Below, in pieces: positions 13,930-17,582 of a stretch of DNA of 34,187 bases. Location of the stretch: the NCBI GenBank assembly GCA_018334875.1, contig JAGXLC010000011.1, positions 1 through 34,187 of the forward strand, written 5' to 3'. How positions within the stretch are numbered: position 1 is the first letter of the stretch; each line of letters starts with the position of its first letter. The translations under genes were made by a program, and so were the position numbers. This DNA comes from Bacteroidales bacterium. Its GTDB lineage: Bacteria; Bacteroidota; Bacteroidia; Bacteroidales; UBA12077. The notes under the pieces were generated by a model that did no database searches, had not been told where the DNA came from, and saw nothing but the letters and a program-made list of their open reading frames with translations.

Positions 13930-15321
13930 ATGAATTATGATCTGATAGTTATAGGAAGCGGACCGGGTGGTTACGTTGCCGCCATAAGGGCTTCCCAGTT
14001 GGGAATGAAAGTAGGTGTTGTGGAGAAAGCAGAGCTCGGTGGAGTATGTCTTAACTGGGGTTGTATACCCACCAAGGCACTACTCAAAAGTGCAGAGGTA
14101 TACCACAATTTTAACAAGGCTAAAGAATATGGTATTAGCGTAGAGGGTGAGATTAAGCCTGATTTTGAGGCCATGGTAAGCAGGAGCAGAAAAGTTGCAG
14201 ATGGTATGAGCAGGGGGGTTCAGTACCTTTTCAAAAAGAACCAAATTGATCACATCCGGGGAACCGGCAAGCTGGTTGATAAGAAGACCGTCGAGGTAAG
14301 TGATACGGACGGCAACACAGCGAATTATTCAGCGAATCACATTATACTGGCTACAGGGGCGAGATCGAAGGAGCTCCCAAATCTTAAGCAGGACGGTGAA
14401 AAGGTTATTGGCTATCGGAAAGCCATGACGCTCCCTAAACAGCCAAAATCGATTATTGTTGTTGGCTCGGGAGCTATAGGAAGCGAATTTGCTGACTTTT
14501 ATAATTCAATCGGAACGGAAGTTACGTTGGTAGAGGTGTTGCCCAGCGTGGTACCTATTGAGGATCAGGAGGTCTCCAAACAACTGGCCCGTTCCTTTAA
14601 GAAAAAAGGCATCAAGGTGATGACCAATGCATCCATTGAATCGGTAGATACCACCGGTGATCTTTGCAAGGCAACCATCAAAACCAAAAAAGGAGAAGAA
14701 ACCAAAGAGGCTGAAATAGTGCTTTCGGCTGTAGGGATTACCCCTAATCTTGAGAATTTGGGAGTTGAGGAAATGGGCATTGAAATGGACAATGGAAAAG
14801 TCAAAGTTGATGAATTTTACAGAACCAATATGGAAGGGGTCTATGCGATTGGTGATATAGTGCAGGGACCGGCTCTTGCCCATGTAGCCTCTGCCGAAGG
14901 CATTGCCTGTGTGGAGAAGATAGCCGGGAAGAACCCCGAACCTCTTGATTATAGAAACTTACCAAGCTGTACATATACTTCACCTGAGATCGCTTCCGTT
15001 GGAATGACTGAAGAAGCTGCAAAGGAAGCAGGATATGAGATCAAGGTGGGAAAGTTTCCCTTTACCGCATCAGGGAAAGCAAATGCCGGAGGTGAGAGTG
15101 AAGGGTTTGTCAAGCTTATATTCGATGCCCAATATGGCGAGTTGCTGGGAGCGCACATGATTGGCGCCCATGTCACTGAGATGATTGGTGAACTTTTGGT
15201 GGGTAAGAAAATTGAAGCCACCGGACACGAATTCATCAAATCTGTCCATCCCCATCCTACCATGTCAGAGGCTATAATGGAAGCAGCGGCTGCGGCATAT
15301 GATGAAGTGATTCACATATAG
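13930..15321 (+). CDS. lpdA: Dihydrolipoyl dehydrogenase (E3)
   Basis: 463 residues. FAD-binding GSGPGGYVAAIRASQLG opens the protein; the redox disulfide is GGVCLNWGCIPTK (Cys40, Cys45). The NAD-binding fold is at VVGSGAIGSEFADFYNSIG, the second FAD motif at YAIGDIVQG, and the C-terminal HPHPTMSEA gives the catalytic His-Glu dyad of the partner subunit. It reoxidises dihydrolipoamide in 2-oxoacid dehydrogenase complexes or the glycine cleavage system. No E1, E2 or glycine cleavage genes lie beside it, so which complex it serves is open. The solo tail of the palindromic repeat begins immediately after the TAG, and a strong terminator follows. Confidence 0.96.
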   Translation: MNYDLIVIGSGPGGYVAAIRASQLGMKVGVVEKAELGGVCLNWGCIPTKALLKSAEVYHNFNKAKEYGISVEGEIKPDFEAMVSRSRKVADGMSRGVQYLFKKNQIDHIRGTGKLVDKKTVEVSDTDGNTANYSANHIILATGARSKELPNLKQDGEKVIGYRKAMTLPKQPKSIIVVGSGAIGSEFADFYNSIGTEVTLVEVLPSVVPIEDQEVSKQLARSFKKKGIKVMTNASIESVDTTGDLCKATIKTKKGEETKEAEIVLSAVGITPNLENLGVEEMGIEMDNGKVKVDEFYRTNMEGVYAIGDIVQGPALAHVASAEGIACVEKIAGKNPEPLDYRNLPSCTYTSPEIASVGMTEEAAKEAGYEIKVGKFPFTASGKANAGGESEGFVKLIFDAQYGELLGAHMIGAHVTEMIGELLVGKKIEATGHEFIKSVHPHPTMSEAIMEAAAAAYDEVIHI

Positions 15322-15370: not shown

Positions 15371-15399
15371 AAAAAGGGCGGAAATTTCCGCCCTTTTTC
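15371..15399 (+). terminator. Rho-independent terminator of lpdA
   Basis: AAAAAGGGCGGAAA and TTTCCGCCCTTTTT form a perfect palindromic stem with a T-tract, 50 bases after the stop. Confidence 0.92.
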
Positions 15400-15638
15400 A
15401 TTTTCGGGTAATCTGCATTTGTTGGGGTTAGGAGTAGGGTTTTGTATTTTAGGGTTAGGTCATTCTATATTGATAAAAAAAACCATTTCGCTTTTTAGTT
15501 TCATATATTAGATGAAAAAAGTCCGGGAAAAGTTGCGTTAATTTTTATTTAAAACGCAACTTTTTTTCTAAAAGCTCCATCTATATTGTGAATAGAAAAT
15601 ATCTTCCGGTATGCTTTTACATTATTAAAAATTTTGGG
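15400..15638. other. Non-coding gap before the sigma factor, with a second hairpin
   Basis: About 240 bases with no convincing gene. It contains GT-rich stretches with two GGGTTAGG-like motifs (15425-15461) and, at 15528-15567, a strong hairpin described separately. It should also hold upstream promoter elements for the sigma factor operon. Confidence 0.5.
15528..15567 (+). terminator. Second terminator-like hairpin, no gene directly upstream
   Basis: AAAAGTTGCGTT (15528-15539) pairs perfectly with AACGCAACTTTT (15553-15564), followed by more T. The lpdA transcript should already end at 15399, so this hairpin may end an undetected small RNA that starts after 15400, or it may be a simple backup. 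Confidence 0.6.
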
Positions 15639-15669: not shown

Positions 15670-16224
15670 GTGTCAAAGCTGAATAACATAGTAAAAGCTT
15701 GTCTCTCGGGAGATTCGAAGGCACAAGCCCAGTTGTATAAACAATATGCAAGTCGCTTGTATGCTCTGTGCCTGAGATATACTAATAATGAGGATGAAGC
15801 CAGGGATATACTCCAGGAAGGTTTTATCAAGATTTTTGAAAAGCTTGGGCAGTATAAGAACACAGGTTCTCTGGAAGGATGGATGAGAAAGATTGTTGTG
15901 AATACTGCTTTGGAAAAGATAAGGAAAGAAAGCCGTTTCGTGCTGGTAGAAGATGAAACAATGATCGAAAATGATAAATACAAGTACGAACATGTATTGG
16001 AGGATATAGAAAGAAATGAGCTGTTGGGAATGATTAAGGAGTTGAGTTTACAGTATCGTATGGTTTTCAACCTTTATGCCATTGAGGGATATTCACATAA
16101 AGAAATCAGCAAAAAACTCAATATCAGCGAAGGTACTTCAAAGTCCAACTTGTCAAGGGCAAGAGAATTGTTAAAAAGTAAGATTGAAACACGATATAAG
16201 ATTAAATTTGGGAAAGTGATTTAA
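15670..16224 (+). CDS. ECF-type RNA polymerase sigma factor (sigma-70 family)
   Basis: 184 residues from the GTG at 15670; TTG codons at 15664 and 15634 are alternatives, and the promoter box at 15639-15646 speaks against the longest form. Region 2 spans about residues 20-90 (YALCLRYTNNEDEARDILQE, then EGWMRKIVVNTALEKIRK) and region 4 about 125-175 (LSLQYRMVFNLYAIEGYSHK, then a helix-turn-helix ending SNLSRARELLKSKI). There is no region 1 or 3, so it is an extracytoplasmic-function factor. Its stop overlaps the start of the next gene as TAATG, so the pair is translationally coupled, as is usual for a sigma factor and its anti-sigma regulator. Confidence 0.92.
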   Translation: MSKLNNIVKACLSGDSKAQAQLYKQYASRLYALCLRYTNNEDEARDILQEGFIKIFEKLGQYKNTGSLEGWMRKIVVNTALEKIRKESRFVLVEDETMIENDKYKYEHVLEDIERNELLGMIKELSLQYRMVFNLYAIEGYSHKEISKKLNISEGTSKSNLSRARELLKSKIETRYKIKFGKVI

Positions 16225-17582
16225 TGACGGTAGACAGATCAAAAATAGATGAGATTTTCCGCAACAGATTGAAGGATCATGAAGTGATCCCTCCCTATGA
16301 GGTATGGGAGGATGTTGTGGTACATCTGGCTGAGCGCAGGAGAATAAGAAAAAGTAAAAAGATGTATCTGCAGATTGCGGCCTCTTTGATTATTCTTGTG
16401 GCTGCAGGGTCCCTTTTCCTGACATCCTCTGAAACTTTATTCAATTCGGGCGTTCAGTCACAGAATCGTATTGAAAAACAGTCCTCCCGTAATATTGTTG
16501 AGGAGCCACCTTCTCAGCCCTTACATGCGGATGCTTCCGAAAAAGAACCTCCTGAAAAGGAATCTGGCGGCTCTCCTCCGGTTGATGATCAAAAAAGTCA
16601 GGATGCCGGTAGAGATTTTCCATCCGATGGAAATACCAATGCCCTTGCATCTTTATCTCCGGAAACCAGCGAAAATATAGATGAGCTTTTGGAGAAAAAG
16701 GAACCCCTGATGTCCGGTGTTTCCTCAAATAACGGAGCCGGGGAAGAGCCGGTTTTTGCAGGAATTTATGCCGTCGATGCGTTTACCGATGGGTTTGCCT
16801 CCTCAGGGGAGGCTTCTGTTGCCGCTGATGTTCCCAATACAACGCATTTCTCCCTTAAAGCTACTATGGCGCCTGTGATGTCTTACCGAAGATTGCAGAA
16901 TAATGCATCGCGGGCTGAATACAATACTTCTGAGAGCGAGCTTTTCTCTTACAGCGGGGGTGTTAATTTCGGCTATAAGCTCACCGAGCGCTTAAGTGTT
17001 CATTCCGGTTTCTATTATTCACAAATGGGACAAACAGTAAGCAAAATCCGTCTCGGTTCCGACGATTTTGCACAATATGGCGAAGAAATTTTTGTCAGGC
17101 TGAAGAATTCGCTGGGGGAAGTTGAAGTAAAACCCGGTAAGCTGATTAGTGCCAAGCCTCCTGAAAGCATTCAGAATATCGTAAACGGAAACAGACTTCT
17201 TAAGTTTTCCTATAAGCTGGATGCTTCAGTAGTGCAACGATTTGAATATGTTAAAGTTCCTTTGATGGTTGAATATACCGTAATTGACAAAAAAATCGAT
17301 GTAAATCTTGTAGGTGGACTTAACTCCAACTTCCTGGTTAATGAAGGAGTTTATCTGAAAAATCAACAGGGTGATACACGTTTAATCGGGAATACAGCCA
17401 ATATACGTCAGTTCAATTATTCCGGGTCATTGGGTTTAGGCTTGGAGTATAATATTGCAAATCAAGTTAATATGTATTTTGAGCCCCAAATGGATTATTT
17501 TTTACATTCCATTAATTACAGTGAAACAAAAACCTATCCCTATTCGTTTGGTGTTCTTACAGGGTTGAGTATAACTTTTTAG
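16224..17582 (+). CDS. Anti-sigma-like membrane protein with a C-terminal outer-membrane beta-barrel-type domain
   Basis: 452 residues in three parts. Residues 1-47 are charged and cytoplasmic-looking (MTVDRSKIDEIFRNRLKDHE, PPYEVWEDVV), as in Bacteroidetes anti-sigma proteins. One membrane helix follows at about 48-67 (MYLQIAASLIILVAAGSLFL). Residues 70-205 are a low-complexity Pro/Glu/Ser-rich linker. Residues about 206-452 alternate like a porin-type barrel (SGGVNFGYKLTERLSVHSGF; GSLGLGLEYNIANQVNMYFE) and end in GVLTGLSITF, a terminal Phe typical of barrels. It probably regulates the overlapping sigma factor. How one chain reaches both membranes is unclear; it has no cleavable signal. A pure periplasmic beta-domain is the alternative. 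Confidence 0.75.
   Translation: MTVDRSKIDEIFRNRLKDHEVIPPYEVWEDVVVHLAERRRIRKSKKMYLQIAASLIILVAAGSLFLTSSETLFNSGVQSQNRIEKQSSRNIVEEPPSQPLHADASEKEPPEKESGGSPPVDDQKSQDAGRDFPSDGNTNALASLSPETSENIDELLEKKEPLMSGVSSNNGAGEEPVFAGIYAVDAFTDGFASSGEASVAADVPNTTHFSLKATMAPVMSYRRLQNNASRAEYNTSESELFSYSGGVNFGYKLTERLSVHSGFYYSQMGQTVSKIRLGSDDFAQYGEEIFVRLKNSLGEVEVKPGKLISAKPPESIQNIVNGNRLLKFSYKLDASVVQRFEYVKVPLMVEYTVIDKKIDVNLVGGLNSNFLVNEGVYLKNQQGDTRLIGNTANIRQFNYSGSLGLGLEYNIANQVNMYFEPQMDYFLHSINYSETKTYPYSFGVLTGLSITF

Follow-up and report, generated by a model that had tools for sequence, protein, structure and literature searches.

Can a single polypeptide connect a cytoplasmic ECF sigma factor with the outer membrane? The question is raised by two overlapping genes in the 34,187-nucleotide stretch of Bacteroidales DNA analysed here (the window), the first encoding an ECF sigma factor and the second a 452-residue protein to which a first-pass annotation, made from the sequence alone, had assigned an anti-sigma-like N-terminus and an outer-membrane-type barrel. 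The architecture of this protein, the fold of its barrel, its conservation, and the promoter of the pair with its targets are established here by computation, and the coordinates are collected in Table 1. Probably, as we read it, a single chain holds sigma at the inner membrane, has its barrel in the outer membrane and releases sigma upon outer-membrane disturbance.

The sigma protein matches Pfam families PF04542 (region 2, 1.9e-15) and PF08281 (region 4, 6.6e-17). Its reading frame is open upstream to a TTG at 15634; the GTG at 15670 is the likely start, since GTG is also the first codon, at the equivalent position, in the relatives L004 and L005, and the start and coordinates first assigned to the gene were right. 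The TAATG overlap was also found as described, the stop codon TAA (16222-16224) sharing one base with the ATG at 16224 (TAATG, 16222-16226). In 25 of 30 loci the sigma ORF ends between -4 and +9 bases from the anti-sigma start, and in the remaining five the locus or contig stops short, so that the figure is 25 of 25 where the DNA reaches. A natural fusion of sigma and anti-sigma was absent from the matches listed for the 15 genomes searched. The pair is flanked by a lipoamide dehydrogenase gene upstream (ending at 15321) and by genes for an SLT transglycosylase and UvrA downstream. An ECF sigma factor followed by a membrane anti-sigma factor in a Bacteroidota genome would suit classical FecI/FecR cell-surface signalling with a TonB-dependent transducer. 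However, no TonB-dependent receptor is found among the neighbouring genes seen at the window locus, and no FecR domain is detected in the 452-residue protein, in which no Pfam family other than PF13568 appears with E of 1 or below, so that this explanation is hardly credible. Class I anti-sigma partners have been ascribed to only 6% of Bacteroidetes ECFs (PMC7406223).

Table 1. Features of the sigma/anti-sigma locus, in window coordinates
Feature	Position	Strand	Basis
Candidate sigma-dependent small RNA, ~130 nt	15371..15503	-	Start inferred from promoter; core 15406-15437; terminator hairpin 15371-15398
Divergent second promoter copy, back to back with the operon promoter (predicted)	15510..15538	-	Motif; 17/22 distinct genomes
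Predicted sigma/anti-sigma operon promoter, own-sigma type, ACGCAAC-N17-CATCT	15554..15582	+	25/25 relatives
ECF sigma factor gene, 184 aa, GTG start	15670..16224	+	Pfam regions 2 and 4; relatives' starts; family alignment
Anti-sigma factor/outer-membrane barrel, single 452-aa chain, Dma-type	16224..17582	+	ORF, Pfam, alignment, model
Residues 1-47, cytoplasmic anti-sigma region, D..F+..L..y...PxxxW..I...L	16224..16364	+	Conserved motif; putative sigma-holding role
Residues 48-67, single transmembrane helix	16365..16424	+	Hydropathy, model, K/R asymmetry
Residues 68-204, disordered periplasmic linker	16425..16835	+	pLDDT <50; low identity
Residues 205-452, modelled 8-stranded outer-membrane beta-barrel ending in Phe	16836..17579	+	Pfam, AlphaFold2, Foldseek, VIA-align

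The charged N-terminus, the single helix and the long disordered linker that had been noted at first sight were all borne out. Residues 1-47 of the chain, whose predicted intact size is 49 kDa, include 12 K/R and 9 D/E and no Cys, and residues 1-60 gave no Pfam match. P24 and W28 are invariant in the 26 aligned full-length relatives, in which the helix and the barrel are also kept, and W28 is nearly invariant (at least 90%) across a 77-member alignment of ORFs that follow related sigmas; the PxxxW motif is common to the proteins following this sigma family throughout Bacteroidota. The KD hydropathy peak (2.13) lies at residues 49-67, the next best being 0.88, a helix spans residues 25-73 in the AlphaFold2 model, and K/R are commoner before the helix than after it in 26 of 26 relatives. 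The linker (~137 residues) is of low complexity, with pLDDT <50. Mean identity over the 26 relatives is 35% in the N-terminus, 16% in the linker and 44% in the barrel. Such a chain might also work as two halves acting apart, a protease always cutting after the helix, so that one gene would provide a one-helix anti-sigma factor and a free barrel. The end of the helix, AAGSLFLTSS, would suit a cleavage site, the helix could in principle be a cleaved signal peptide, and a long, poorly conserved linker fits constant cutting. A charged cytoplasmic stretch of 47 residues is, however, long for a cleavable signal; the linker, in spite of its free sequence, is fairly constant in length (124-193 residues, sd 15.6), as expected for a tether; and a single ORF is kept in the 40 of 59 relative genomes in which the window protein was matched. 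Halves that always separate are thus unlikely.

Chains that combine an inner-membrane helix with a barrel are rare in general, and the C-terminal domain could instead be a periplasmic beta domain anchored to the inner membrane, with no inserted barrel. The model argues otherwise. AlphaFold2, given an alignment of 26 related sequences (mean pLDDT 67), placed eight long strands between residues 209 and 451, mostly with pLDDT of at least 90, the long loop that joins strand 3 to strand 4 (about 274-334) being less certain (pLDDT 55-82). Structural comparisons, all resting on this one model, gave OmpA as the top Foldseek match, followed by OprG, OmpW and Ail among others, and in VIA-align a Legionella T4SS-associated porin (Z 18.8), NspA (18.5), OmpA (17.4), the OprF barrel (17.3) and OmpW (16.5); the closed-barrel matches near the top of the latter list (Z 16-19) are outer-membrane barrels only. 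PF13568 (OMP_b-brl_2) scored 30.2 bits over residues 234-413, against a cut-off of 27, and the terminal Phe is present in 23 of 26 relatives. A profile search of PDB sequences rendered chance matches only. The PorT/OmpW-type barrel ending in Phe that had been proposed is therefore recovered as an OmpA/NspA/OmpW-like eight-stranded model. A soluble beta-sandwich, the outcome that would have told against signalling across two membranes, was not seen for residues 205-452, and that objection fails because of the barrel model and of PF13568 scoring above its cut-off. The eight strands, the Z scores, the terminal Phe and the published family of dual membrane-spanning proteins considered below (PMC13088901) make an uninserted periplasmic domain very improbable.

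The architecture had been suggested for a search in other Bacteroidota, and profile matches, in part or whole, were obtained in 216 of 296 genomes sampled from this class. The window's own genome holds two further sigma/anti-sigma pairs, L117 and L118. In L117 (contig C127) the N-terminal motif occurs in three to four tandem copies, and L030, L052, L067, L069 and L077 share with it an arrangement of two to four tandem anti-sigma motifs before the helix, as if several sigma molecules could be held by one chain. When named genomes were scanned with the sigma alignment, 590 places were confirmed; 78 of the best 80 of these have record titles naming a Bacteroidota group or genus, and the other two of the best 80 are titled only 'bacterium' (L056) and 'Bacteroidetes bacterium' (L073). 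The loci collected include no Bacteroides-titled record with the gene. Ten pattern hits in viral contigs included no relative of the anti-sigma protein, and plasmids gave no anti-sigma match by tblastn.

The ORF after sigma was taken at each of these best 80 places, and 77 partner proteins were usable (L060, L107 and L108 were left out). The N-terminal profile was found in 75 of the 77 (E <0.1) and the barrel profile in 31, and by Pfam 29 carry PF13568, nine PF13505 and nine CHU_C, a type IX secretion signal. The CHU_C partners (L056, L062, L084, L086, L087, L091, L095, L103 and L109) have the same N-terminal region and helix, two of them also have PKD domains, and they adjoin sigma genes of a Flavobacteriales-rich group. 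Eight of the nine were scanned singly, and all had CHU_C at the C-terminus (27.2-61.7 bits, cut-off 27); the ninth, L091, is nearly identical to L086. In a sigma tree of 83 rows, made by a quick method and with 39 of its 79 inner branches open, the window lies in a clade of 33 rows (support 98) with 28 barrel partners, five unlabelled rows and no other kind, 13 rows of the tree being unlabelled on account of a cut or doubtful ORF. The nine CHU_C rows require two changes on this tree, versus 8.7 in shuffles, and barrel partners outside the main clade are those of L117, L118, L074, L081, L092 and L101. Judging from the CHU_C variants, the outer end seems exchangeable, and the object watched may be the assembly line handling that end. 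In Flavobacterium psychrophilum, T9SS genes have been described to share a sigma-ECF-like promoter motif with one sigma/anti-sigma pair (PMC9723704), a lead toward sigma control tied to the T9SS. The CHU_C anti-sigma factors, if real, would join sigma control to type IX secretion via the anti-sigma protein itself.

The two genes are predicted to share a promoter of their own sigma type and thus to be self-regulated. The element ACGCAAC-N17-C(A/G)TC lies upstream of sigma in 25 of 25 relatives with an invariant spacer, and the exact pattern ending in CRTCT rendered 79 sites in 24 genomes versus six for a reversed control (table sums). In a search over the wider Bacteroidota for the core GCAAC-N16-18-(C/T)(A/G)TC within 300 bases before sigma, with expectations taken from shuffles, the core was present at 26 of 29 loci with barrel partners (0.24 expected), three of nine with CHU_C (0.04), ten of 27 with neither end (0.28) and seven of 13 unlabelled loci (0.06). 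Outside Bacteroides, such a promoter can serve directly as a reporter of this sigma family, and the invariant spacer makes its regulons readable from sequence.

After manual removal of duplicates, 17 of 22 distinct genomes show a divergent copy of the promoter, in two cases as a TAGCAAC variant. Outside the window's genus, in the sister genus and further afield, the frame ahead of it tends to be small or lipoprotein-like; within the window's genus no conserved reading frame lies ahead of it, and the stretch that it faces contains a core of 32 nt that all five genomes of the genus share (at most one mismatch) and none of 54 other relatives has. A hairpin with a T run closes the ~130-nt stretch; it did not appear in a terminator scan, probably because its stem takes in the T run; the fold z of -4.9 is driven by this terminator. 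With the core on one side of the hairpin and the lipoamide dehydrogenase gene on the other, read-through from that gene should stop before the core. Near the candidate, Rfam rendered only matches below gathering scores. The anatomy is that of a candidate sigma-dependent small RNA. MicA and RybB are sigmaE-dependent small RNAs of Escherichia coli, and the divergent RNA would be of that kind.

Exact-pattern sites away from the sigma loci were collected (48 fetched, seven of them flagged as lying within a long frame; single sites in G025, G026 and G028 were left out). Among the ten genomes of the sister genus (G005-G014), the promoter precedes yaaA in eight (PF03883, E 2.5e-87 for one of them). 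It also occurs at a divergent pair of genes for an LVIVD-repeat lipoprotein and a small barrel in five of the ten, before a lipoprotein of ~160 residues in five, before a serpin in two, and before an 81-residue orphan in three (G005, G006 and G013). This orphan was sought by protein in 12 genomes, and seven further sister-genus genomes were positive; all seven have ACGCAAC-N17-CATCA 142-188 nt upstream of it, outside the reach of the first pattern, which at the level of sequence is an independent, out-of-sample success of the motif. Every one of the ten sister-genus genomes has an orphan of 80-82 residues without a Pfam match (L212:2157-2399, minus strand; L204:2227-2466, minus strand; L264-L270), preceded by the sigma promoter at a distance of 140-260 bases or less. 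The serpin-type lipoproteins of L221 (1321-2556, minus strand; PF00079, E 5.7e-114) and L233 lie directly behind the promoter, a protease inhibitor being an odd sigma target.

The window's own genus gave a different picture. Promoter sites with one mismatch in the own genome numbered 12, versus 12 for the control, and beyond the sigma locus its five genomes have 12 further sites versus seven for the control, which is not above background. The promoter is absent upstream of yaaA in three of three own-genus genomes (the yaaA starts of the sister-genus genomes G005 and G006 were not located, and these two were left out of the scoring), and the five share no sites other than the two at the sigma locus. 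An exact intergenic copy in the own genome (L193, C52:6417) points antisense into a recQ-like gene and has no evident gene of its own.

For the holding of sigma, the insertion of the barrel, the cutting and the signal, we infer from the anatomy of the chain and from the Phocaeicola and Bacteroides thetaiotaomicron pairs how it might work. Residues 1-47, anchored by the helix, would keep sigma at the inner membrane, the long disordered linker would cross the periplasm, and the barrel would sit in the outer membrane. Misinsertion of the barrel, or a disturbance of the outer membrane, would cause the chain to be cut or the pull on it to be altered, and sigma would be freed. Freed sigma would then transcribe its own operon from ACGCAAC-N17-C(A/G)TC together with the divergent transcript and, for the sister genus, envelope and stress genes. 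A broader idea, which we advance tentatively and with considerable doubt, is that these anti-sigma factors act as client reporters of outer-membrane assembly lines, a single conserved sigma-holding N-terminus being joined to any domain that has to go through the machinery under watch, with a barrel as client of BAM in Bacteroidales and CHU_C as client of the T9SS in the Flavobacteriales-rich group, a failed client being cut and sigma freed. The conserved output in the window's own genus may then be RNA, since only the operon and small-RNA promoters were found in all five genomes.

The initial proposal of signalling across two membranes stands in its structural half, on the strength of the barrel model and PF13568. 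Its claim that the one-chain architecture is unusual has to be given up, since it is already in print (PMC13088901, PMC9308784): the architecture is not new and fits the "dual membrane-spanning anti-sigma" (Dma) family of Bacteroides, published in 2022-2026. Pardue et al. named the class, described it as occurring solely among Bacteroidota, and related it to vesicle formation and gut fitness; the B. thetaiotaomicron pairs are Dma1/Das1 and Dma2/Das2, with Das1 and Das2 belonging to ECF21 (PMC13088901). Because the published descriptions of the Dma and Phocaeicola proteins match, we file the window pair as an additional Dma member, Dma1 and Dma2 having been compared by description only. Like them, it has one chain, here predicted to run from the cytosol to the outer membrane, with an adjacent cognate ECF sigma, restricted to Bacteroidota; unlike them, it comes from a non-Bacteroides genome, and the available part of PMC13088901 makes no mention for Dma of the promoter, the sister-genus regulon or the divergent RNA described here for the window family. 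With FecR cell-surface signalling it would share the reporting of the outer-membrane state to an ECF sigma, which in that case takes two proteins, an anti-sigma factor and a TonB-dependent transducer, whereas here one chain would do. Another close system is that of Phocaeicola vulgatus M0N98_03760/03761, likened to the EcfO/Reo pair of Bacteroides fragilis (PMC9308784, PMC13114119), in which Evans et al. (2022) reported an "unusual anti-sigma factor" whose predicted chain crosses the periplasm and ends in an outer-membrane barrel. Its loss frees sigma, a genetic proof of anti-sigma action, and the pair is induced by the toxin BcpT, an envelope attack (PMC9308784). A downstream anti-sigma gene and a predicted inner-membrane helix and C-terminal outer-membrane barrel are common to this pair and that of the window, whereas the regulons differ, that of Phocaeicola comprising NigD genes and an LPS glycosyltransferase (PMC9308784), and the one predicted in the window's sister genus YaaA, a serpin, an LVIVD lipoprotein and a barrel.
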